A stretch of DNA of 64,000 nucleotides, taken from an uncultured Flavobacteriales bacterium (lineage in GTDB: Bacteria > Bacteroidota > Bacteroidia > Flavobacteriales_G > Salibacteraceae). Under the pieces are notes generated by a model, which saw nothing but the letters and a program-made list of their open reading frames with translations, ran no database searches and was not told the origin of the DNA. Made by a program: the position numbers and the translations under genes. Of this stretch, positions 4,163-47,022 are shown in pieces (position 1 is the stretch's first letter; each line of letters begins with the position of its first letter). Location of the stretch: the NCBI GenBank assembly GCA_913057205.1, contig CAJXNO010000015.1, positions 1 through 64,000 of the forward strand. Direction: 5' to 3'.

Positions 4163-4966
4163 ATGAGAAACTTTCTTCAGTTCATCTGGAATAATCAGTT
4201 CACGTTTTTGTTCTTCTTACTGGAGTTCTTGGGCTTCTTATTGCTCACCACCAACAACCCTTACCACAAAAGCAAAGTAGCCTCCACCTCCGTAGCCATC
4301 ACTGGCAACATCGCTGAGGTGAATTACGCCTATGAACAATACCTCGGCCTACGAGAAGAAAATCTAAAGCTCCTCGAAGAGAACGCCCGACTCAAAGAAA
4401 GAGGACTTGAAACCGCAACGCAACAATTCACAAAAGACGGTCGCTTTCAGCTATCAACCGCCCAAGTGATTCAGAGCACCTACAAGCTTGGCAACAACTT
4501 CCTGATCATCAACCGAGGCTTAGAAGACGGCATTGAACCCCAGCAGGGGGTCCTTGGGCCAGAAGGAGCCGTTGGCATTGTCTACAAAGTATCAAACGAG
4601 TACAGCGCCATCATGCCGATCATCCACAGCCAAAGCATGCTGAGTTGTAAACTCGGCACCACTGGTTATTTCGGCATATTGAAGTGGGATGGCAAAGACG
4701 AGCGTTTTGCTGTTCTAGAGGATATTCCGAACCACGTTCGGGTGGCGGAGGGTGAACCTGTGCTGACCCGAGGTGCTTCTGGCGCTTTACCTGCAAATGT
4801 GCTGGTTGGCAAGGCCGTGGCTGCTGAGCGCAATGAGAGTTTGGGTTTTCAAACGGTACGGGTTCAATTGGCCACAGATTTCCAACGCATCGGAAGCGTT
4901 TACATCATTCAAAACGAAACGAAGCCAACCTTGGATAGCTTGAAACTGGAATTGGAAGGTGAATAG
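4163..4966 (+). CDS. mreC: Rod shape-determining protein MreC
   Basis: 267 residues. One N-terminal transmembrane helix (about residues 10-30), a short coiled-coil segment (about 55-85, with REENLKLLEENARLKERG), then the beta-barrel periplasmic MreC domain (QSTYKLGNNFLIINRG, then GPEGAVGIVYKVSNEYS). MreC links MreB to PBP2 across the inner membrane. It sits 42 bases after mreB, and its stop overlaps the mreD start by 8 bases, consistent with coupled translation. Confidence 0.95.
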   Translation: MRNFLQFIWNNQFTFLFFLLEFLGFLLLTTNNPYHKSKVASTSVAITGNIAEVNYAYEQYLGLREENLKLLEENARLKERGLETATQQFTKDGRFQLSTAQVIQSTYKLGNNFLIINRGLEDGIEPQQGVLGPEGAVGIVYKVSNEYSAIMPIIHSQSMLSCKLGTTGYFGILKWDGKDERFAVLEDIPNHVRVAEGEPVLTRGASGALPANVLVGKAVAAERNESLGFQTVRVQLATDFQRIGSVYIIQNETKPTLDSLKLELEGE

Positions 4967-12466: not shown

Positions 12467-12925
12467 TTACAGGCCCAATGGAATTTCCGTTTCTTCCTCT
12501 ACCGGCACCTTCTTGGTGTAAAAGAAATTTCCGGCCTTCAATTCTCCTTTGATGGTCACCTTAGGCTTCTTGCCGGTAAGCGCCCCAGCCAATCCCATAA
12601 AGCCCCCTGCAAGCGCATTGCTCAGGTTACCAGAAAGCTGAACTGGATAGGTCTTCGAACTGTTGGATTCGATCTTAAACGCCTTGCGAAGGCTTGCCTC
12701 ACCAAGCTTCACGTTTCCTGTGAACAACTCAAAATCAGCGGATTTTACCGTAATTCCGAAACTATTCGGATTGGATAAGACCATGTGGATGGTACCATCG
12801 ATTTGTCCGCCTTGTAAACTTTCCAGATTGATTTCTTCAATGCTTTCTAGCTGAACATCCTTAAATTCACATCCCCAAAGCAAAGGGAGCATCAACAGGA
12901 AAAGGACTCGTATTCGACTTGACAT
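12467..12925 (-). CDS. Small LEA type 2 / WHy-domain lipoprotein
   Basis: 152 residues. A lipoprotein signal is visible (LFLLMLPLLWGC, with Cys near residue 19 as the probable acylation site). The remainder is one LEA-2/WHy-like beta domain: GTIHMVLSNPNSFGITVKSA is the typical hydrophilic start, followed by ELFTGNVKLGEASL. Function unknown; WHy proteins are linked to desiccation or stress in other organisms. Two starts are possible, 12925 and 12931. The 5' ends of this gene and the divergent T9SS gene overlap or nearly so, and a weak -7 box (CATCTTTG) lies around 12969-12976. Confidence 0.75.
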   Translation of the reverse strand: MSSRIRVLFLLMLPLLWGCEFKDVQLESIEEINLESLQGGQIDGTIHMVLSNPNSFGITVKSADFELFTGNVKLGEASLRKAFKIESNSSKTYPVQLSGNLSNALAGGFMGLAGALTGKKPKVTIKGELKAGNFFYTKKVPVEEETEIPLGL

Positions 12926-12974
12926 GATCATACAACGCACGGTGTTAGGGTTTCGCATCAATTGCACCGCAAAG

Positions 12975-15902
12975 ATGCTAAGCCTGATGTTGCTTTCCCT
13001 GATTTTCATGCAGAATTCTTTTGCGCAAACCCAGCGCGCTTTGCGATGGTCGTTCCCCAATGAAAATGGCCTCGACTTTTCGTCAGGCTCACCCCTCGCG
13101 GTTACCGATTCTCTTACAGGAGACCGAGGTACAAGCGGTATATGCGACGAAAACGGTAACTACGTTTTCTACAGCAACGGCGAAACCGTGTGGCAAGCAA
13201 ATGGCTCCATCATGCAAGGAGGATCCAACTTAGTTGGGGATCAAAATGCGGTACAATCGAGCATCATCACGCCTTCCGTGAATAGCAACACGCGCTACTA
13301 TCTATTCGTGGTAGATGAACGAAATGCAGGTAATCCCATTCCACAGGTTCACTACTACGATGTAGAGATGACACTCAACGGAGGCAATGGCGCAGTGATC
13401 GGACCAACACTGCTATTAGACTCTGCCGTAGAGAAGTTGGCCGCTACGCGTCATGCCAACGACCGAGACTATTGGGTGCTCGCGCACAAGATCGATTCTG
13501 ATGAGTTCCAGGCGTTTTTGGTTGATGAGAACGGGGTGAATTTGACTCCGGTAACGAGCTCTATTGGCGCTGTGCATTCGACAATTCTATCTGCCAATCA
13601 CGAAGGCCAGATGAAGATATCTCCGGATGGAAAGTGGGTTGCCACGGCCATTTTTAGCGCTGGCATTGTTCAGTTGTTTCGATTCGATAACGCCACTGGA
13701 GTGGTTTCTGATCCGATCACCTTGGTGAATGGAATTACCACCTTCCCCTACGGATGCGAATTTTCGGCAGACAGCAAGAAATTCTACTACAACCGCTCTG
13801 TTTCAAATGGTGGCAACCCTGTTGGCGTGCACCAATTTGACTTGGACCACGCCTCCATTGATTGTTTGCTTGCGAGTGAGCAGGTCTTTACCAACAACGA
13901 TCCCTTTAAGCTCTACGCAGACATGCAGTTGGCTCCAAACAAGAAGATCTACCTGGCCTACTATGAGCCACCCCCCTTTGATGAAGATTCATTGGGGGTG
14001 ATCAACAACCCAGACGAAATGTTCCCGGGATGTAACTATGAGAACATGGGCTTTGAGCTGAACGATGGAATGGTCTATGGCTTGAGCAACTTCGTTTCGA
14101 GCTTCTTGAGCGATGGCATCACCTATGAATTTGGCACGAATTGCGAAGATCTCTCGACGATCTTCTTTCCTGAAGACACCTTAGCCTTAGACAGTGTGCG
14201 CTGGAATTTTGGAGACCCAAGCAGCGGCAATAATGAGAGCACTTCCCTTCAAGCCAGTCATACTTTTTCAGCACCAGACACCTTTTTGGTCACGCTCTAT
14301 GCCCACCGAATCGGAGGAACAGACACCTTCACCCGAAATGTGATCATTTGGGACCGAAACCTGAGCATTCTCGGAAACGACACTACCCTTTGCAATGGTG
14401 CGCCGGTGACCTTCAATGCAGCTTGGAATGATGCCTGTTTGTTTTGGAGCGATAGCACCACCAACACAACGTACACGACCGCCGAGGAAGGTTGGCATTG
14501 GGTGGATGTGAGTTATCAAAGCTGCGTTTGGCGCGATTCTGTTTTTGTGGAATTGGTCAATGAGGCTCCAGACGTTGATTTGGGCAATGATACCGTGGTT
14601 TGTGGAAGCATTGATTTCACCCTTGATCCTGACCTCGCCAATGCCTTCTACACTTGGCAAGACGGTTCGCATGATACCACCTTCAACGTTACGGCCATCG
14701 GCACCTATTGGTTGCAAGCGAGCAATGCTTGTGGCACATCGTCAGACACCATTATTGTTGAGATCAACAGTGATGCCCAGCCTGTTTTGAATTTTCCAGA
14801 AGATACCACCGTTTGCTCCGTCGATGGTCTTCCGGTTGATGTGAGTTTCAATGGAGCACAGTACACCTGGAGCGATGGCTCTAACTTAGGCATTCGAACA
14901 TTGAATGTACCAGGGACCTACTGGGTAGAGGTTGGCAACAGTTGCGATACCGTGAGTGACACCTTTAACCTTTTCATCGACGAGCCTGTTTTTTCCAGCC
15001 TACCGGATGTTAGTGTGCACTGCGGAGATGGAGATACCCTAAGGCTTCGCGCTACCAGCGATACGAGTTCCGTACTTTGGTCAACAGGCACACAAAGTCC
15101 CATCCTTGCCATACTATCTGCTGGCAGCTATTCCTACGTAGACAGCAACACTTGTGGTACCTATCGTGATACCGTGGAAGTACTTGCATGGGATTCTTCT
15201 TACCGCATCAGCTTGGGTGCAGATACCACGCTTTGTGAAGCGAGTTTCGGCTTCTTGATCGGTGATACAGCAAATCGCTATCCATTTGAATACACCTGGA
15301 GTACAGGTAGCTCAGCAGCTACGATTTTTCCGGAGACCGGCACCTTCATCTTAGATGCAAGTACCCGATGCGGCACGGTGAGTGACACCATCCGCATCGC
15401 GATTGCAGCTTCCGTTGGCATTCGAGATAGCTTGATCGACACGGTACTTTGTCAAGGCGAAGAGCGCACGCTAGAACTCAGCGCCGACAATCTGAGAGAA
15501 GTGAATTGGTCTACCGGAGCAAACTCGGAAAGCATCCTTGTGCAAGCGGCTGGAACGTATACGGTATCGCTAATTGATAGCCTTGGTTGTCCGCATGAGG
15601 ACGAGATCACCTTCAATGATTTTTGCCCTGGAATTGTCAACGCGCCCAACGTTTTCACTCCGAACGGTGACGGGTTGAACGATGCCTACTGCATTGAATT
15701 GACCAACGTGGTCACCTACAAGGTTCACATCTACAACCGCTGGGGAAGTGAGCTTTACTTCACCGCAGACCAAGGCGGTTGTTGGGACGGAAAGATCAGC
15801 GGTGAAGCTGCAGCTGCGGGCACCTACTTCTACTTGGTAGAGGGCATCGACGCCATCGGCGAGGATTTCCAATTCCGAGGCTCCTTCACCTTACTGGAAT
15901 AA
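12975..15902 (+). CDS. Large secreted protein with beta-propeller, PKD-like and repeat modules and T9SS type B sorting domain
   Basis: 975 residues from the ATG at 12975, which gives a clean signal peptide (LMLLSLIFMQNSFAQ). An ATG at 12924 is also in frame but would overlap the divergent gene. Residues ~20-390 look like a WD40-like propeller (VFYSNGETVWQANGS, MKISPDGKWVATAIF). A PKD-like segment follows (VRWNFGDPSSGNN, SHTFSAPDTFLV). Then come about six ~75-residue Ig-like repeats of the pattern D-T-x-x-C ... W-x-x-G-x-x ... G-x-Y-x-V. The end (NVFTPNGDGLNDAYCIE, IYNRWGSELYF) is a T9SS type B/gliding-associated C-terminal domain. Likely a surface adhesin or gliding-related protein. Confidence 0.88.
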   Translation: MLSLMLLSLIFMQNSFAQTQRALRWSFPNENGLDFSSGSPLAVTDSLTGDRGTSGICDENGNYVFYSNGETVWQANGSIMQGGSNLVGDQNAVQSSIITPSVNSNTRYYLFVVDERNAGNPIPQVHYYDVEMTLNGGNGAVIGPTLLLDSAVEKLAATRHANDRDYWVLAHKIDSDEFQAFLVDENGVNLTPVTSSIGAVHSTILSANHEGQMKISPDGKWVATAIFSAGIVQLFRFDNATGVVSDPITLVNGITTFPYGCEFSADSKKFYYNRSVSNGGNPVGVHQFDLDHASIDCLLASEQVFTNNDPFKLYADMQLAPNKKIYLAYYEPPPFDEDSLGVINNPDEMFPGCNYENMGFELNDGMVYGLSNFVSSFLSDGITYEFGTNCEDLSTIFFPEDTLALDSVRWNFGDPSSGNNESTSLQASHTFSAPDTFLVTLYAHRIGGTDTFTRNVIIWDRNLSILGNDTTLCNGAPVTFNAAWNDACLFWSDSTTNTTYTTAEEGWHWVDVSYQSCVWRDSVFVELVNEAPDVDLGNDTVVCGSIDFTLDPDLANAFYTWQDGSHDTTFNVTAIGTYWLQASNACGTSSDTIIVEINSDAQPVLNFPEDTTVCSVDGLPVDVSFNGAQYTWSDGSNLGIRTLNVPGTYWVEVGNSCDTVSDTFNLFIDEPVFSSLPDVSVHCGDGDTLRLRATSDTSSVLWSTGTQSPILAILSAGSYSYVDSNTCGTYRDTVEVLAWDSSYRISLGADTTLCEASFGFLIGDTANRYPFEYTWSTGSSAATIFPETGTFILDASTRCGTVSDTIRIAIAASVGIRDSLIDTVLCQGEERTLELSADNLREVNWSTGANSESILVQAAGTYTVSLIDSLGCPHEDEITFNDFCPGIVNAPNVFTPNGDGLNDAYCIELTNVVTYKVHIYNRWGSELYFTADQGGCWDGKISGEAAAAGTYFYLVEGIDAIGEDFQFRGSFTLLE

Positions 15903-17336: not shown

Positions 17337-17463
17337 AGTTTCCATTCAAGGCAGCCTATTCCACCTCAATACGTCTAATGCATCGACGAACTGCCTTTTT
17401 ACGGCAATTAAGTGAAAGACTTTTGCTAAAATTGTAGGTAAACCGTTGTGTGATTCTTTGGGT

Positions 17464-18996
17464 ATGAAACAATTAATGAGCATAATGATCTTGCTCGCTG
17501 TGAGCGTTGCGGCTACAGCGCAAGATGGGGATCCCACTCCTCCTGAAATTCGAAGTGTTGGGGATGACCAAAGTATCAACTGTTTGTCGGACCCCGTAAC
17601 CCTAGCCATCATGATTGATGGTTGGCAAGAAGGATTTCAATATGCATGGAGTACAGGATCTAGCGATTCCAGCATCTCAGTAAAGCCGAACACCTCCGCG
17701 GTGTATTCGGTCACCGTGAGCCATCTAGACTTGGGCATCTCGGTAGTTCGAAATTTCAATGTGGATGTGGATAATGCCCCAATTACAACAGAAAACAGAG
17801 CCATCCTCGTAGACAAGCTGACCTGTCCCGGAGCAGACCTCACGATTAGTGCGGAAGCAAGCGGCGGACATGGCGATTTACGTTACCAATGGTCGTTCGG
17901 GTCCATTGATCCAACACCTACCGTGCAACCTGAAGCGTCAACACGCTACGATGTTGTTATCACAGATGCCTGCGGAACTACGGCCACGGCGCACGTAGAC
18001 GTCACATTAGAAGAACACGATCCGATTGAGGTCACCAATGCTATCACCATTGATTACTCCTGCGGCGAAAAAACCATTGATCTTCACCCAGAGCTCAATG
18101 GCGTTTCTGGAGGTGTTGGTCATGGGTATCAGTATGCCTTCGCCGGTAATGCTGTTGGAACACCTATAACGGTTGTGCCTGACGATGCAAAAAAAGATGC
18201 CTTCATCGCAAAGATCACGGATGCATGTGGTCTGCAGTTTGCAGAACAGACCATTCAACTGGAATTTCACGAACTTGATGTAAAAGATGCACCCGCACTC
18301 TACGCCTGCAGCAATGAGCCTATCGAGCTCGTATCTGAAGGAGATGGATTCTATTTCTGGGATGGTGATGCTATGCATGCATCCTATGAGGTCAACGCAA
18401 AGAGAAGCAAGACCTATGAGCTGCGATACATAGACGCTTGCGGAATGGAGCAAGTCACTGAGCGAAAGGTGGAGGTTGAGCGAATGAATATGGATGTGCA
18501 GTGGAACATTGAGCACCTAGGTCGCAAGATTTACGCTTTCGCAAATGGAGCATCTACTTTGAGCAAGTATGCTTGGTACCTGAACGGAGAACTGGTTTCT
18601 ACTGACGAACAAGTTGAATTGGAAGACGTTACATTAGATGAAAACGAATTAACCTTTGAGGCCACAAGCGATCTAGGTTGCCGCTATCAAGAGCGAGGAT
18701 CGATCGTTTTCCAAGACGGTGTTCAGATCCCTTTGGCCATCTCACCGAATGGAGACGGGTTAAATGAAAGTTTCAGGGTTCGCTTTGAGGAGGAGCTGGA
18801 ATCCTTTCAGGTAACAATCTTCGACCGCTGGGGACAAGAGGTCTTCCAATCATTGGACCAGCATTTTGAATGGAGTCCGAGCGACGCTCAAGTGATCGGT
18901 CCAATCGGTACATTTGCCTACGTTCTTGAAGCACAAACCAAAGGCGGAAAAACAATCGAAAAAACAGGAGTATTAACTACCATCCATGCGAAGTAA
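17464..18996 (+). CDS. Secreted repeat protein with T9SS type B sorting domain
   Basis: 510 residues from the ATG at 17464 (a TTG/GTG-type upstream start at 17446 would spoil the signal peptide). The signal peptide covers about 1-20 (MILLAVSVAATAQ). Four to five ~80-residue Ig-like repeats follow, of the type C-x(n)-W-S-T-G-S-x-D-S-x-I ... Y-x-V-x-V-x-D-A-C-G-x-x-x. The C-terminus (LAISPNGDGLNESFRVR, IFDRWGQEVFQ) is a T9SS type B sorting domain. It overlaps the next gene by 11 bases, and both share repeat style, so they are probably co-translated surface proteins. A TAAAATTG sequence at 17426-17433 is a possible weak -7 box. No enzymatic motif seen. Confidence 0.85.
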   Translation: MKQLMSIMILLAVSVAATAQDGDPTPPEIRSVGDDQSINCLSDPVTLAIMIDGWQEGFQYAWSTGSSDSSISVKPNTSAVYSVTVSHLDLGISVVRNFNVDVDNAPITTENRAILVDKLTCPGADLTISAEASGGHGDLRYQWSFGSIDPTPTVQPEASTRYDVVITDACGTTATAHVDVTLEEHDPIEVTNAITIDYSCGEKTIDLHPELNGVSGGVGHGYQYAFAGNAVGTPITVVPDDAKKDAFIAKITDACGLQFAEQTIQLEFHELDVKDAPALYACSNEPIELVSEGDGFYFWDGDAMHASYEVNAKRSKTYELRYIDACGMEQVTERKVEVERMNMDVQWNIEHLGRKIYAFANGASTLSKYAWYLNGELVSTDEQVELEDVTLDENELTFEATSDLGCRYQERGSIVFQDGVQIPLAISPNGDGLNESFRVRFEEELESFQVTIFDRWGQEVFQSLDQHFEWSPSDAQVIGPIGTFAYVLEAQTKGGKTIEKTGVLTTIHAK

Positions 18997-21973
18997 GTTC
19001 ACATTCATATTACTGCTCATTGTTGTTTTGTTGAGTTCACATTCCAGTCACGCGCAACTGACAACTACGTCGGCTGTACCATATAACACAGCTACCCATT
19101 TGGTGAATAACGTCCTCATGGGTAACGGGGTGCAGGGCTATAATATCTCCTCATACGGGGCGGTGTTTCAGCGCGGCTTTTTTGACAATGGATTAACTGC
19201 AATCGGTTTAGACAGTGGGTTGGTGATGTCTTCAGGAAGCATCGCCAACATTCCAACTTCTAGTGGACTTGGAGCCTCAACTGCAGTGCTAAATGGAGCC
19301 ACCCAAGGTGGTGGCGATGCTGATCTTTTGGCGGTAGCTCAAAGCGTTCCTGGACTGATCGGACAAACGTTTAGTGTCAACAGCACATGGGATGCATGCT
19401 TGATCGACTTTGACTTTGTTCCACTGAGCGATACGGTTGAATTTGATTATGTATTCGGTTCGGAAGAGTACCTCACATGGATCAACTCGCCGTACAATGA
19501 CGTCTTTGGATTTTTTCTCTCTGGTCCTGGCATTACGGGTACTTACTCAAACAGTGCTATTAACGTTGCCAACGTCCCAAATACTACACCGCCGCTCCCA
19601 ATTACGATCAGCACTATTCACCCAACGTTAAATGGAACGTATTACAATTCAGGAAATATCAACCTAGCCTATAATGGATACACCGATGTAATGACCGCTG
19701 TACTGGAAGTGCAGGCTTGTGACACGTTCCACATGAAGCTTGGTGTTGCCGATGGCTCTGATAAGATCCTTGATACAGGCGTTTTTCTTGAAGGAGGAAG
19801 TTTCGAGGCGGTAGGCATCATCGTTGAACCATCTCCATCGTACAATCCATTCGGAAACGACACGGCGCTCTTTGAAGGTTGTGGAGATGTTACGATCTAC
19901 TTCACCAGAAATGACTCTGTGCTTTTAGCCGATTCCCTCAGCTATGAGGTTTGGGGTGATGCTACCATGTCGCAATTCAACACAACCAACGGCGACTACT
20001 CACATATTGTGAATACGGCAGGCGCGCCTTGTGTTTGGAACGCAACCACGCAGCACTGGATGTGTGAGCTGTATTTTGCTGCAGGTGAAGAGACCGACTC
20101 CATCACCTTCGATGTGTTTTATGACAATATAAATGAAGGGTTTGAGAGTTTGATCATCGCGATCACCGATAGCGTTGAATTGGGTTGTACGGATGGTGAT
20201 ACCATAGAATTGAACATCATTGACCAGCCCAACCTTACGATCAATGCCTTTGGTGATGTTACCCTGGACTGTGCAGACGACTCTGCACTTATTGGGGTGA
20301 ATGTGCTCGATGGACTCCCACCATTTACCTACACTTGGGACAATGGTCATGATGATAGTACCCAAAACGTACTGCCGCCATTTACTACGTCTTATGTGGT
20401 AACGGTGGAAGACGCATGCGGGCAACAACAAGAAACCGACTTCGTGAACATCAGCGTCTTCAACGTGCCCTGGTCGTCTGTGAAGATCGGTAACAACCAG
20501 ACCATTTCGTGTATATCGCCACCGGTGGATATTGGCGTTGGCGTTGTGTTCAACGACGGCATCTGGCACGGCGACATAAGCTACGAGTGGAGCACGGGCG
20601 AAACAGATTCAATGATCTCGGTATACTCTACCGTTGATACGACCTATACCGTTACCATTACACGAAACTGTACTGGCGAAGAGGTGGTGCACAATTTCAA
20701 CCTGTACACCTACAACGATCCGGTGATCACTTCCACCAAGGATGTGCCTGAAAGCTTCTTTGATTGCCCGGAAGACACCACCACCATCAAGGTGAGCACC
20801 TCTGGTGGTTACCCCCCGTATACCTTCAATTGGTCTACAGGTTCCGTTGACTCTACTACCTTGGTTGGACCTGAGCTAACCACCACCTTCTTTGTTACGG
20901 TGAATGACGTTTGCGGCTTGGTAGACTACGTAGACTCTGTTGTGGTTGAAATGCCCGTTGCAGAACCATTGGAGATCTTGAACATCAAGAACGATACGGT
21001 TCCTTGTGAGAACGTTTATGTCACCTTCGGTCCGGCCTACCCGAAAGGCGGTTTTGGATGGGGCTATGCCTTCAGCTGGAATAACTTCGAGACCTTTGAT
21101 GATACCTACCGACAGATCCTATTCGAAACCGACACCTTCACCATTTGGTTAACCGATGGGTGTAGAAACGACACGGTGAGCAAGGACGTTTATGGGGTGG
21201 TTTCTGATAAAAACAAACTTGATTTATCCGTCTCCAACGATACCCTGGTTTGCTTCGGCGACGAGATCATCTTGAAAGCACAGGCAGTTGAAGGAGTCAA
21301 AGAATACTTCTATGAGTGGGAGCATGGGCCTCGCAATCCGCACGTCCTTGTTCGCCCAGAAAAAGCGACAACCTACACTGTTCGGGTAACCGACCAGTGT
21401 GATACCACGAGAACAGCTTCTGTTTTTGTTGACGTTGCCAAAGTAGAAGCTGACTTTGATTGGGAGTACATCAATGACTACGAAGTTGCGTTGACCAACA
21501 AGACTACAAGCAACAAGACCATCGAGGGTTACGTTTGGGAATCCAGAGAAGCCGGCATTGTTTCTTACGAGACCGACCCGGTGATTCCAATGCCTGATGG
21601 AAATCCATACATGGTGCAGTTGACAGCAACCGATGAATACGGATGCTCCGACTTCGATACGGTGGTGGTTTCACCTACACACCATTTGTACATCCCTACC
21701 GGTTTCACGCCGAACAATGACGGTAAGAACGATACCTGGTCCGTGAAAGGACTCGGCATCCGAGACATCCGTGTGGAGATCTACAACCGCTGGGGCGAAA
21801 CGCTGTACTACACCGATGATAAGAACTTTGAGTGGGACGGCCGTGTGAATGGCAAGCGCCTTCCAATGGGTGCCTACAGCTACCGATTGGTACTGATTAC
21901 CGATGGCGGTGAGTTCGTTGAGCGACGTGGAGTGGTGAACCTCCTGAATGATTTCACGGAACGCGACGAATAG
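18986..21973 (+). CDS. Choice-of-anchor L domain protein with Ig-like repeats and T9SS type B sorting domain
   Basis: 995 residues. Signal peptide about 1-23 (LLIVVLLSSHSSHAQ). Residues ~70-230 match the choice-of-anchor L domain: GDADLLAVAQSVPG, then FDFVPLSDTVEFDYVFGSEE and FGFFLSGPGI. A Calx-beta-like stretch (VTIYFTRNDS, SITFDVFYDNINEGFESL) follows, then about five repeats of the W-S-T-G ... T-x-x-V-T-V-x-D-x-C type. The end (IPTGFTPNNDGKNDTWSVKG, EIYNRWGETLYY) is a T9SS type B sorting domain. Predicted to be secreted and held at the cell surface; role in adhesion or gliding is inferred. Starts 11 bases inside the previous gene. Confidence 0.9.
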   Translation: MRSKFTFILLLIVVLLSSHSSHAQLTTTSAVPYNTATHLVNNVLMGNGVQGYNISSYGAVFQRGFFDNGLTAIGLDSGLVMSSGSIANIPTSSGLGASTAVLNGATQGGGDADLLAVAQSVPGLIGQTFSVNSTWDACLIDFDFVPLSDTVEFDYVFGSEEYLTWINSPYNDVFGFFLSGPGITGTYSNSAINVANVPNTTPPLPITISTIHPTLNGTYYNSGNINLAYNGYTDVMTAVLEVQACDTFHMKLGVADGSDKILDTGVFLEGGSFEAVGIIVEPSPSYNPFGNDTALFEGCGDVTIYFTRNDSVLLADSLSYEVWGDATMSQFNTTNGDYSHIVNTAGAPCVWNATTQHWMCELYFAAGEETDSITFDVFYDNINEGFESLIIAITDSVELGCTDGDTIELNIIDQPNLTINAFGDVTLDCADDSALIGVNVLDGLPPFTYTWDNGHDDSTQNVLPPFTTSYVVTVEDACGQQQETDFVNISVFNVPWSSVKIGNNQTISCISPPVDIGVGVVFNDGIWHGDISYEWSTGETDSMISVYSTVDTTYTVTITRNCTGEEVVHNFNLYTYNDPVITSTKDVPESFFDCPEDTTTIKVSTSGGYPPYTFNWSTGSVDSTTLVGPELTTTFFVTVNDVCGLVDYVDSVVVEMPVAEPLEILNIKNDTVPCENVYVTFGPAYPKGGFGWGYAFSWNNFETFDDTYRQILFETDTFTIWLTDGCRNDTVSKDVYGVVSDKNKLDLSVSNDTLVCFGDEIILKAQAVEGVKEYFYEWEHGPRNPHVLVRPEKATTYTVRVTDQCDTTRTASVFVDVAKVEADFDWEYINDYEVALTNKTTSNKTIEGYVWESREAGIVSYETDPVIPMPDGNPYMVQLTATDEYGCSDFDTVVVSPTHHLYIPTGFTPNNDGKNDTWSVKGLGIRDIRVEIYNRWGETLYYTDDKNFEWDGRVNGKRLPMGAYSYRLVLITDGGEFVERRGVVNLLNDFTERDE

Positions 21974-41775: not shown

Positions 41776-42867
41776 ATGAGTAAGTATGCTCTTTATATCG
41801 TAATGCTGTTCATGGGATTGTTCGGGCTACAAGCCGTTCAAGCACAAGCTCCGAAGTACAGCAACGAATTCCTCAGCATTGGTGTGGGTGCCCGTGGTTT
41901 AGCCATGAGCAAAGCACAAGTGGCATCCGTCAATGACGTAACCTCTGCCTACTGGAATCCAGCCGGATTGGTGGGCATCGAACAAGACCTGCAAGTGGCT
42001 GCACAACACGCGGAGTACTTCGCGGGGATCGCGAAGTATGATTACGGAGCCGTGGCCTTCAAGACCGACAGCAACAGCGCCTTGGCCTTCAGCGCGATCC
42101 GTTTTGGGGTAGATGATATTCCGAACACCACTGACCTGATCGACCAAAACGGCCGAGTGAACTATGACCGCATCACCTCCTTCACGGCGGCTGACTACGC
42201 CTTCTTGGTATCCTATGCAAAACGTTTGGCGGTACCTGGATTGAGCGTTGGAGGTAATGCCAAGGTGATCTACCGACAGATCGGCGACATGGCGCAAGCC
42301 TGGGGTTTTGGTGTAGACCTAGGCGCTCAATATGCCTTAAACCAATGGCGTTTTGGGGCTACTGCGCGCGATGTTACTTCCACCTTCAATGCTTGGAGTT
42401 TCTCGCTTGACGATCGTACCAAGGAAGTTTTTGAAGCCACCAACAACGAGATCCCACAAAATGGATTGGAGTTAACGCTTCCCAAGCTGAGTCTGGGAGC
42501 TGCCCGCATGTTCAAAGTGCATGAATACGTAGACGTGCTGGCAGAGTTCAACATGGACATCACCACTGATGGTAGACGAAACGTACTCATCAGCGGGGAT
42601 CCCTTCAGCATCGATCCGAACCTTGGTTTGGAGGTAGATGTGATGGACATATTCTACGTGCGTGCTGGCATTGGCAACATGCAACAAGTGAAGGCTGAGG
42701 TGGGTAATTACACCGAATATACCTTCCAGCCAAATATTGGTGTAGGCGTGAACATCAAGAATACCGTAGCCATTGATTACGCGTTGACCGACATTGGCGA
42801 TCAAAGTGTGGCGCTCTACTCCAACGTATTCAGCTTGCGCGTAGCGATCAATAAGAAACCGATGTGA
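41776..42867 (+). CDS. PorV/PorQ-family outer-membrane protein (T9SS-associated)
   Basis: 363 residues, signal peptide ~1-23 (LFMGLFGLQAVQAQ), then a FadL/PorV-like barrel: EFLSIGVGARGLAMSKAQVA and ASVNDVTSAYWNPAGLVGIE are characteristic of the PorV/PorQ family. PorV shuttles T9SS cargo from the translocon to the PorU sortase. This copy directly precedes a decayed PorU2-like sortase gene with a GTGA-type overlap, so it is probably the partner of that lost sortase rather than the main PorV. Intact reading frame. Confidence 0.87.
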   Translation: MSKYALYIVMLFMGLFGLQAVQAQAPKYSNEFLSIGVGARGLAMSKAQVASVNDVTSAYWNPAGLVGIEQDLQVAAQHAEYFAGIAKYDYGAVAFKTDSNSALAFSAIRFGVDDIPNTTDLIDQNGRVNYDRITSFTAADYAFLVSYAKRLAVPGLSVGGNAKVIYRQIGDMAQAWGFGVDLGAQYALNQWRFGATARDVTSTFNAWSFSLDDRTKEVFEATNNEIPQNGLELTLPKLSLGAARMFKVHEYVDVLAEFNMDITTDGRRNVLISGDPFSIDPNLGLEVDVMDIFYVRAGIGNMQQVKAEVGNYTEYTFQPNIGVGVNIKNTVAIDYALTDIGDQSVALYSNVFSLRVAINKKPM

Positions 42868-45800
42868 AAACCTATGCGTGGATAGCACTCTTTTTGTTTT
42901 GGGCCGTTGCTTCCAGCGCACAGCCGCTCGCTAACGACTGGATCGACTAACGTGCTGATCAACGCTACCTTAAATTCAATGTAACCCAAGATGGGCTGCA
43001 CAGGATTGACTATAATGCACTGAACTTCGCGCTGCAACAAATCAGTGAAGACATTGCCGACATCAATCCGCAAACCATTTAGATTTGGGGCCGCGGAGAA
43101 GAGTTGGCCGTACACGTGGAAGGCGAGGCCGATGGAAGCTTTGATCCAAACTACGCTGTGGTCTTCTTCGCTGAGTCGAATGACGGCTGGGCGGACGAAG
43201 TGATGTATGGCGGCAATGCAGAACACACCGACCCCTATTACAGTCTATACAGCGATACCGCAACTTATTTCTTGACGTGGGACCCTGAAGACATAGCAGC
43301 CGGATTACGATTCGCTCCGGTTAGCTTTAACACACCTGCAAGCACGCCCGTGCCCTACCTCTGGCAGGAGCAAGTGCGAATCTATAATGACAGCTATCAA
43401 AAAGGTGAAGACCTCGGGGGTGGAAAACCGACCACCTCCTATGCCGGCGGTAAAGGCTGGATGAGCGGACTCATCGGCTACAACAATGGCTCCACCAGAA
43501 CCCTAGGAGACATGAACTTCTGCACCCCGCAAGCGCAGAATGGAGCCGGATTCCCTTCACCAAGTGTTGAGGTGGCGTTGGCCGGCATGAACTTTGGCGC
43601 AGGAGGGGTTCAGGCGCATCATGCCCAAGTTCAAGTAAACAACGGGAGCGGATTCAGTGCGGTGTCTGATGTCTTTTACGGAAGCTATGAATATACCCGC
43701 GACCTCTCCAATATCAATGCATCCTTAGGCAATACCACAACGATTCGTATCGCGGTAAACACCACGGTTTCTCCCTTGAATACTGCTTCTGACTATTCCG
43801 CCTGTGCGTTTGTGCGCTTAGTTTATCCGCGCGGCTTGAACATGTCAGGACAGGCATCCTTCTACGGAGAGGTTCCTCAAAGCGCGTCGAACACCTACCT
43901 CTCTGTAAGCAACTCTGGTAGCCAGGCCATTACGAACGTTTATGACCTTGGTCAGAACAAACGCTATGTGACCACTGCCAACAGCGGAAACTTTCAGTGC
44001 AACATCGACCCCGGTAACCGACGCCATTTGGTATAGTCATCGAATTCGGCCATGATAGAAGTTGGATCAAACAACCTTCGTCCCGTAAGCGACAATAGTC
44101 GATTCAGCGATCCATCTACCTGGGAGGCGGAGAATGCCTTTGTGATCATCAGTCACCGAAAGATTTGGACCGAAGCAGAGCGCTATCGAAACTACCGAAA
44201 CACACGATTCAACACGGTCTTGGTAGACATCGAAGTGCTGTACGATCAATTCTCCTATGGTATTCGCAAGCACCCGTTGGCAATCAGAAATTTTGCTGAT
44301 TACATGCTGACCGCGTGGACGTCTGACCCCTCCCACCTTTTCTTACTTGGAAAGTCGATCGAAGAGCCCAGGGTGAGAAAGAGCAGCAGTTTAAAAGCAG
44401 CGAACTTGATTCCATGTGTGGGCTTTCCTGTTTCTGACATCATGCTCACCGCTGGTTTGAACGGAGATAAGAGTCATGTCCCCGCCATTCCCACCGGCAG
44501 ACTGGCCGCACGGATGAATGAAGAAATCGCCATCTACCTCGATAAAGTGCGTGAGTTTGAGAACGCCCACAACATCCAGATCACACCATACACCATCAAC
44601 AACCGGCAGTGGCAAAAGCACATCCTACATTTCGCCGGCGGAGATAACGCAACTGAAAATGCATGCTTCCGCGGATACTTGGCAGGATACCAAGAACAAG
44701 CCGAGGACAGCCTATTTGGGGGCAAGGTCTTCTTATTCAGCAAGACCAGTGGAAACGTGATCGAAGAATTGAATACAGACAGCGTACGTTTACTTCTTCA
44801 GAAAGGTCCGGCTGTGATGACCTTCTTTGGACATGTTTATGGCAATACCTTCGACCTCAGTGTGGACGATCCGAGCCTTTGGAACAACCGGGGCAAGTAT
44901 CCCTTTGTGATCGCCAATAGCTGTTTTTCTGGTAACATTCACCTCCCGGTTGAGTCTATTCCGAGTATCTCTGAGCAATACCTCTTCACCCTAGCGAAGG
45001 AGCCATTGCCTTCATCGCTACACCCGATCAGTTATGAGAACTACCTGAACAAGTATACCACGGAGCTGTACCGGCAGTTCTCACGGAAGAACTACGGCGA
45101 AAGCTTCAGCAAACAGATGCAAGCTACCTGTGACCGCATGCCAAATGACGAACGTAACAAGGGTGTATCCTTGGAGATGACCATGCACGGTGACCCGAGT
45201 CTAATGCTTTACCCACATGACAAGACCGAGATCAGCATCAATGATCCTCAATCGGGTGCAGACATTCGTTACATCCCATCTAACATCACCACCGATCGCG
45301 ATTCCTTTGCCGTGGAGGTGACCCTCTCTAACCTTGGCAAGTCTACCAGCAAGAGCTTTAACCTACCTGCAACTTTCCCAATGGAGCCGACCCGGTGATC
45401 ATTACCAAGCAGGTGAATGGCATCGACTATGAAAAAACGATCCGCTTTTCCTTTCCAGTAGACGGGGAGAATGGCATCGGAGAGAACACCCTTCGCATAG
45501 AAGCCGACCTTCCCTTGAGCGTTGTTGAAGAGAAGATAGATAACACGAACAACCTCATCGATCAGTCGAGCTTTTTCATCGGCAGCTCTGAGATCTTCCC
45601 GATTGTACCCTACGACTTTGCTGTGGTTCCGGACCTTTACGTTCGGCTGAAAGCAAATACCGGTTATCCATTCCTCCAAAGTGCCCGCTATTTGATGGAG
45701 CTGGATACCACGGATACCTATGACAGTCCGTTCAAAAAGCAAACAACCATTCAACAAGCTACTGCAGTGATCGAGTGGGACCCGCAACTAAGCACATCGG

Positions 45801-46682
45801 GCTTACCCGACAGCACGGTCTTCTTTTGGCGCGTTACCCCTGAAAACGAACCCGATAAATGGCGAGAGTTTAGTTTTCAATACATCGCTGATGAGGTAGG
45901 CTGGGGACAGGATCATTTCTTCCAATACAAGAACAACCGCTTTGACTTGCTCGACTATAATCGTGCACAACGGGTGTTCAACTTTCCAGAAGCCTCCCGT
46001 GAACTCTTTGTTCAAGTATTTGGCAATCCCGCTGTTGCTGAGCTTGACGACAGCTACTACACCTTGGATGGACAAATTGCTCCGCTGGGTGAGTATGGTA
46101 TCGCATCGATCCGTCCTGGTTTTGCCGTAGTGGTCATCGACTCTACAGAGCTCAAACCATGGGGCACGTATGGCGTTGGACCGAATGGCACCTTCATCAA
46201 TGAAGACCGTCGTTATGGAAACAACAACGATGGTACTGCCCATCGCACACGGGTGGAATACTTTTTCACCTTCGACACGTCTGATGTACAGATGGCGAGC
46301 ATGCGCGATATGATTGAGCAGCACGTGGATGACGGTCATTACCTTTTGTTCTATACCTAGCGTTGGGGATACTTTGAAGCGCCATCGGTTTGGACGGAGA
46401 GCATGTTGGATTTCTTGGAGTCGCTCGGGGCTGATTCCATCCGCTTAGTTCCAGATAGAAATCCCTACATCTTCTTCGTGAAGAAGGGTGATCCGTCTAC
46501 TGCTCGACAGGTGATCGGTGAAGACGAGAAAAGCGTTATCCGACTGAATACGAAAGTCTTCTCGAATTTCCCGCTTGGGAAGCATGGAAGGACCTGATAT
46601 TGGACCAGGAATGGCTTGGGATCGATTTGTATTCAAGCAGCGGGCGCAAGAGAGCAGCACCAATGATATCGTGCAGGGTTGA
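42864..46682 (+). pseudogene. Decayed PorU2-like T9SS sortase (C25 cysteine protease)
   Basis: A GTG at 42864 overlaps the preceding stop and gives a signal peptide (LFLFWAVASSAQ). The coding similarity then runs on through in-frame stops at 42948 (TAA), 43080 (TAG), 44034 (TAG) and 46358 (TAG), plus frameshifts near 44998 and 45031 (a compensating pair), 45375 and 46578. The C25 core is still readable: AVMTFFGHVYGNTFDL with the catalytic His (44832-44834) and FVIANSCFSGNIH with the catalytic Cys (44922-44924). Earlier WGRGEELAVHVEGEADGSF and PYYSLYSDTATYFLTWD fit PorU-family N-terminal domains. The remnant stops near 46671, where sequence of a truncated opposite-strand ABC gene begins. At about 1270 codons, the C-terminal part is missing. 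Not a functional gene. Confidence 0.85.
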
Positions 46683-47022
46683 GTGCGCGCATGCTTTCTT
46701 GGAAGATCATGGTCATGTCTTTACCCCTGATCTGTTCTATGGTACGCGATGATGCGGTGAGCAAATCTACCACCTCTCCGCTGGGCTTGCTGAGTTCCAA
46801 TTGCCCGGAAGTATGAATGTTCAAATGTGCCGGCAACAAGCGCATGATCGCCTTAGCCGTAACCGATTTGCCGCTGCCTGATTCACCAACCAAGGCTACC
46901 ACCTCATCTGGAAAGACATCAAACCTGACATCATTGATCACCATATAGAACCCATCTCCAGAAGAAAAGTCGACCGTCAACCCCTTCACCCGCAGCAATG
47001 GGTTATGAGGGGCATTACTCAA
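46672..47022 (-). pseudogene. Truncated dipeptide/oligopeptide-type ABC ATPase (N-terminal fragment)
   Basis: Starts normally (LLRVKGLTVDFSSGDGFYMV) with Walker A LVGESGSGKSVTAKAIMRLL and a Q-loop MIFQESMRALNPA, then breaks off. A full DppD/OppD protein has ~330 residues; only about 117 native codons remain, followed by 12 unrelated residues read from the PorU2 remnant to a stop at 46633. The signature and Walker B motifs are lost, so it cannot be an active ATPase. Its ATG overlaps the exonuclease gene upstream by 8 bases: it was the last gene of that operon. Confidence 0.85.

Follow-up and report, generated by a model that had tools for sequence, protein, structure and literature searches.

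Recurrent inactivation of the putative T9SS sortase gene porU2 beside a retained porV2 in a genus of Flavobacteriales

Described relatives of PorU2 and PorV2

The T9SS exports cargo proteins that are processed by sortases. According to two papers (PMC4560394, PMC8545088), the sortase PorU cuts the C-terminal signal of its cargo and attaches the cargo to anionic LPS. PorU2 is a predicted second T9SS sortase of the C25 type, and homology suggests that it acts similarly to PorU. The family name itself carries the word putative. Our literature search found no paper that uses the name PorU2.

We discuss PorU2 in a genus where the gene is mostly broken, and take the intact copy of that genus as the basis for comparison with described families. 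This copy matches the PorU2 family (NF052324) at 691 bits and shares its features: an N-terminal region, a C25 domain, a long C-terminal half, and a position following porV2. With PorU (NF033707; Porphyromonas gingivalis PorU, PDB 6za2) it shares a C25 domain with aligned catalytic His and Cys, and 6za2 ranks first in a profile search (E 5.8e-13). It differs from PorU in length, at about 1700 aa against about 1300 aa, and its score against NF033707 (230 bits) falls below the cut-off of 420. The predicted structure of its C25 region (mean pLDDT 86.5) matches PorU and the gingipains RgpB and Kgp (peptidase C25), with Foldseek E-values of about 1e-15 to 1cvr and 4ief. The gingipains, in contrast, are secreted proteases; to our knowledge, neither is encoded beside a PorV2.

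The locus that led to this comparison lies in a window of 64,000 nucleotides (positions 1 to 64,000 of contig CAJXNO010000015.1) from an uncultured bacterium of the Salibacteraceae. The host genome comprises 2.83 Mb in 68 contigs and is 99.9% complete.

The porV2–porU2 locus in the window

In the window, porU2 is a pseudogene that follows an intact porV2 and runs into the remnant of a convergent gene. Lesions were mapped by frame-aware alignment to the intact PorU2 of the same genus (1698 aa). The features are as follows.

41776..42867, + strand: porV2, intact, 363 aa, from the ORF list; NF052325 500 bits, cut-off 325
42864..46670, + strand: porU2 pseudogene (NF052324), covering reference residues about 1-1271 of 1698 (frame-aware alignment)
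42948..42950, + strand: in-frame TAA; 7 of the 8 other copies in the genus have Tyr here
43080..43082, + strand: in-frame TAG; the other copies in the genus have Gln here
44034..44036, + strand: in-frame TAG (frame-aware alignment)
44052..45398, + strand: longest open remnant, which includes the peptidase C25 domain and its catalytic His and Cys; PF01364 148.9 bits
44991..45029, + strand: short out-of-frame stretch, a shift followed by a return (frame-aware alignment)
45387..45388, + strand: frame change (frame-aware alignment)
46358..46360, + strand: in-frame TAG (frame-aware alignment)
46571, + strand: frame change (frame-aware alignment)
46670..46672, no strand: deletion junction joining porU2 (after about residue 1271) to an ABC ATPase (after about residue 114); similarity to PorU2 is lost at 46670
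46672..47022, - strand: truncated OppD/YejF-type ABC transporter ATPase, N-terminal residues to about 114 only, convergent to porU2

The stop codon of porV2 overlaps the GTG start of porU2. At 500 bits with an open frame of 363 aa, the upstream gene is a clear member of the PorV2 family and bears out the intact PorV-like partner named in the initial annotation. It is an outer-membrane barrel of the PorV/PorQ family, distinct from the PorV shuttle family proper (NF033710: 35.9 bits, cut-off 250); here it persists without PorU2.

The downstream gene reaches 611 bits against NF052324 when its stops are read through (cut-off 450), yet a full-length PorU2 ORF of about 1650-1750 aa is absent: four stops and four frame disturbances (out at 44991 and back at 45029, then 45387 and 46571) interrupt it, and the last quarter is deleted, so that it ends at about residue 1271. 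The initial annotation had described a recently decayed PorU2-like gene with stops at 42948, 43080, 44034, and 46358, several frame changes, and a retained C25 His–Cys pair. The alignment places all four stops at those positions and recovers the frame changes, and the equivalents of reference residues H656 and C686 are present. The gene is a real and recent pseudogene, and the assembly error considered as an alternative has left no sign in this genome. We found no second PorU2 copy in the genome, and no missing PorU2 C-terminus on the window's contig with the PorZ profile, which detects that C-terminus in relatives. Amino-acid change on the window PorU2 branch is not clearly accelerated relative to PorU or PorV2.

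The truncated end described earlier is also real, but the reading had missed the convergent ABC ATPase: the deletion enters a second gene. This ATPase is full length (577-591 aa) in three relatives (G003, G008, and G015). The simplest reading is that one deletion took the 3' ends of both porU2 and the ATPase gene. Comparable junctions, each distinct from that of the window, are present in G006, where PorU2 extends to residue 788 and the ATPase to 122, and in G011, where PorU2 is absent and the ATPase extends to 185.

A main PorU had been proposed to lie elsewhere; we find it intact (1303 aa), separate from the porU2 locus, together with intact SprA (2465 aa) and PorZ (779 aa). As to the several expressed T9SS cargo proteins of the initial annotation, DNA speaks to genes rather than to expression, and two type B cargo genes are recognised in the window:

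12924..15902, + strand: T9SS type B cargo with a TIGR04131 C-terminal domain (profile match)
18986..21973, + strand: T9SS type B cargo with choice-of-anchor L and TIGR04131 domains; also used as an accessory-gene control

A 516-aa gene at 17446-18996 resembles the C-terminal half of the adjoining cargo at 18986-21973, with about 30% identity, and most members of the genus have the same two genes in tandem.

PorU2 lesions across the genus

The window genome is one case among many. We searched 13 genomes of the genus, each the single assembly for its species; those with record titles are MAGs. Twelve are assessable, and G002, where the gene ends at a contig edge, was left out. Only one of the 12 carries an undamaged PorU2 (G007, 1698 aa). 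The gene is inactivated by nonsense or deletion in eight, and in three it carries only a frameshift, one of them doubtful (G004). The damaged copies are as follows.

G003: TAA at residue 557, otherwise full length
G008: TAG at 81 and 604, otherwise full length
G010: TAA at 129, otherwise full length
G005: frameshift at 649, the only lesion
G009: frameshift at 74, the only lesion
G004: frameshift only, discounted as an unreliable assembly
G006: TAA at 393 and a 3' deletion
G000 (the window genome): multiple lesions and a deletion
G001: C-terminal remnant only
G012: C-terminal remnant with three stops and one frameshift
G011: gone

In G001 (L075, 4994-5422), the last 143 or so PorU2 residues form an open, well conserved frame after PorV2, with the rest deleted.

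The lesions are private: no two genomes have one in common, not even the close pairs G003/G006 and G007/G009, which rules out a shared ancestral stop or frameshift. They are many independent inactivations across the genus, an observation new relative to the first reading, which had placed the loss in one lineage; this is true of the window taken alone, but almost every species has its own lesion. The damage is also concentrated in this part of the tree. In 80 PorU2 loci from named genomes, the gene is intact in 69 of 72 outside the genus but in only 1 of 8 within it (Fisher P 3e-7); an intact copy is found, for example, in Niastella caeni HX-16-21 (L155). In a class-wide sample, in-frame PorU2 stops occur only in the family of the window genome.

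Could the single-lesion copies reflect assembly or consensus errors, with real loss confined to the window genome and to the copies with deletions? We consider this improbable. It draws on the fact that the named genus genomes are MAGs and on PorZ of G004, where two frameshifts in A-runs (L175, G004:C4:263300-266200) are most likely MAG indel errors; for this reason we treat G004 as unreliable and do not count its PorU2 frameshift. Against it stand the control genes: PorU, SprA, PorV2, PorZ, one type B cargo, and one 824-aa outer-membrane protein, which carry no lesion in any genus genome except G004. Apparent stops in the type B cargo control fall outside the genes on frame-aware alignment. 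With G000 and G004 set aside, 7 PorU2 lesions fall within about 10,900 codons, while about 72,900 control codons of the same genomes are free of lesions (P ~6e-7). Nonsense substitutions, moreover, are not typical of assembly error, and the lesions lie outside long homopolymers. The frameshifts of G005 and G009 are weaker evidence than the nonsense cases, and the single-lesion copies, each seen in one assembly per species, are compatible with fixation, polymorphism, and consensus error alike.

Other readings of the lesions fare no better. Slipped-strand phase variation is ruled out, with no lesion in a run longer than 5 bases, and a change of genetic code is ruled out by the intact SprA and PorU. 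Recoding or read-through that tolerates stops and frameshifts, such that PorU2 is still made, is barely credible. Most of the nonsense codons do stand in for Tyr or Gln codons, which near-cognate read-through could restore; this excess is weak, however, with 24-28% Tyr expected, and we do not use the Tyr-derived stops as evidence. The positions differ between species, frameshifts and deletions are also present, and SprA, PorU, and PorZ contain no in-frame stops. Nor does the context suit leakage, which classically calls for a following C: six of nine stops inspected have T or A next, and two have C.

The reliable lesions in otherwise full-length copies all lie before the catalytic His (6 of 6 before residue 656 of 1698; P ~0.003 for this post hoc comparison). 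Such a placement would be expected if truncated proteins with the catalytic domain still present were selected against.

Age of the losses and persistence of PorV2

Synonymous sites are mostly saturated between species of the genus. Since each neutral percent of divergence is expected to bring about 1.9 stops into a gene such as PorU2, the single-lesion copies must be very young relative to their species. PorU2 dN/dS between G007 and G009 is 0.061, although the G009 copy is broken, which indicates purifying selection on PorU2. Trees of PorU2, PorU, and PorV2 are broadly concordant, which suggests vertical inheritance and gives no sign of interspecies transfer replacing PorU2. Synonymous divergence between G007 and G009 is 1.09 for PorU and 0.44-0.50 for PorU2 and PorV2; allele exchange between close species at the porV2–porU2 locus could account for the lower values.

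One explanation is relaxed selection, in which PorU2 has become dispensable to the genus and is being lost neutrally and irreversibly in every lineage. The copies do span every stage of decay, between a single lesion and deletion of the whole gene, and neighbouring genera are wholly without PorU2. We nevertheless judge this explanation unlikely. There are too many first-stage copies: constant-rate irreversible loss, even at its best-fitting rate, is rejected at P 1e-5 to 1e-3 with the three nonsense cases counted as fresh, and at P 1e-6 or less with five cases. Neutral loss would then require a recent shift that struck all lineages simultaneously. The other option is that null alleles come and go, and we lean toward the latter.

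Purifying selection probably kept PorU2 through most of the history of the genus, and null alleles then arose separately in nearly every sampled lineage. For their recurrence, our leading inference is fluctuating selection on transient nulls: they may be transient or polymorphic, favoured at times (by phage or changing surface needs, for example) but eventually eliminated or superseded. This would account for the small number of lesions, one or two, in most full-length copies. We found nothing direct on phage resistance and T9SS sortases in the literature. That the nulls are a recurring selected state of natural populations rather than a one-way loss, with surface processing by PorU2 repeatedly turned off through mutation, functional alleles prevailing over the long term and PorV2 independent of them, is a tentative proposal, somewhat short of an even bet.

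PorV2 follows a different course. Of 35 genomes in the family, 32 have a PorV2 above the cut-off; two of the others have contig-edge fragments and one (G021) is without PorV2. The gene is also present in five genera in which we found no PorU2 (g2, g5, g8, g11, and g13). In the class sample (Bacteroidia), PorU2 occurs in 79 of 99 genomes (about 80%) and adjoins PorV2 in 62 of those 79; by hand count, 77 genomes have both genes, 10 PorV2 only, and 2 PorU2 only. In the initial annotation, this lineage has lost a specialised sortase yet still carries its partner, which would make PorV2 a mere leftover. Such a view holds for the window alone and is very improbable overall: loss extends through the genus, and PorV2 persists throughout the family, including genomes that have lost PorU2 completely, and hence is not a leftover. 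PorV2 probably serves a function of its own, separate from PorU2. Its scores, 435-463 bits in genomes long without PorU2 versus 489 or more in all others tested, suggest that it drifts once PorU2 is gone; this is a hint, as the genera without PorU2 may be one clade.

Taken jointly, the most probable account, in which we place reasonable confidence, is that the window porU2 is a genuine PorU2 gene killed recently, in one of many independent inactivations, and that PorV2 has been kept for a role without PorU2. As a barrel of the PorV/PorQ family, PorV2 probably escorts cargo to the main PorU/PorZ complex or keeps cargo on the barrel.

The pseudogene is an ordinary object, and the pattern around it is moderately interesting. 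A genus in which PorU2 breaks repeatedly and PorV2 is retained offers a natural experiment: it indicates that PorV2 has a function separate from PorU2 and that the main PorU is independent of PorU2. Cargo compared between intact and broken strains could reveal PorU2 substrates. The pattern is also a warning that collections with one genome per species can hide null alleles.

The neighbouring genes show two further changes. In G011, the C-terminus of PorV2 is altered where a deletion fuses it to the ABC ATPase remnant (L084, about 4350-4409). Across the genus loci (L075-L085), the ATPase gene by porU2 remains complete in G003, G008, and G015, is cut short in G000, G006, and G011, and is missing from most others: erosion at this spot affects a second gene as well.
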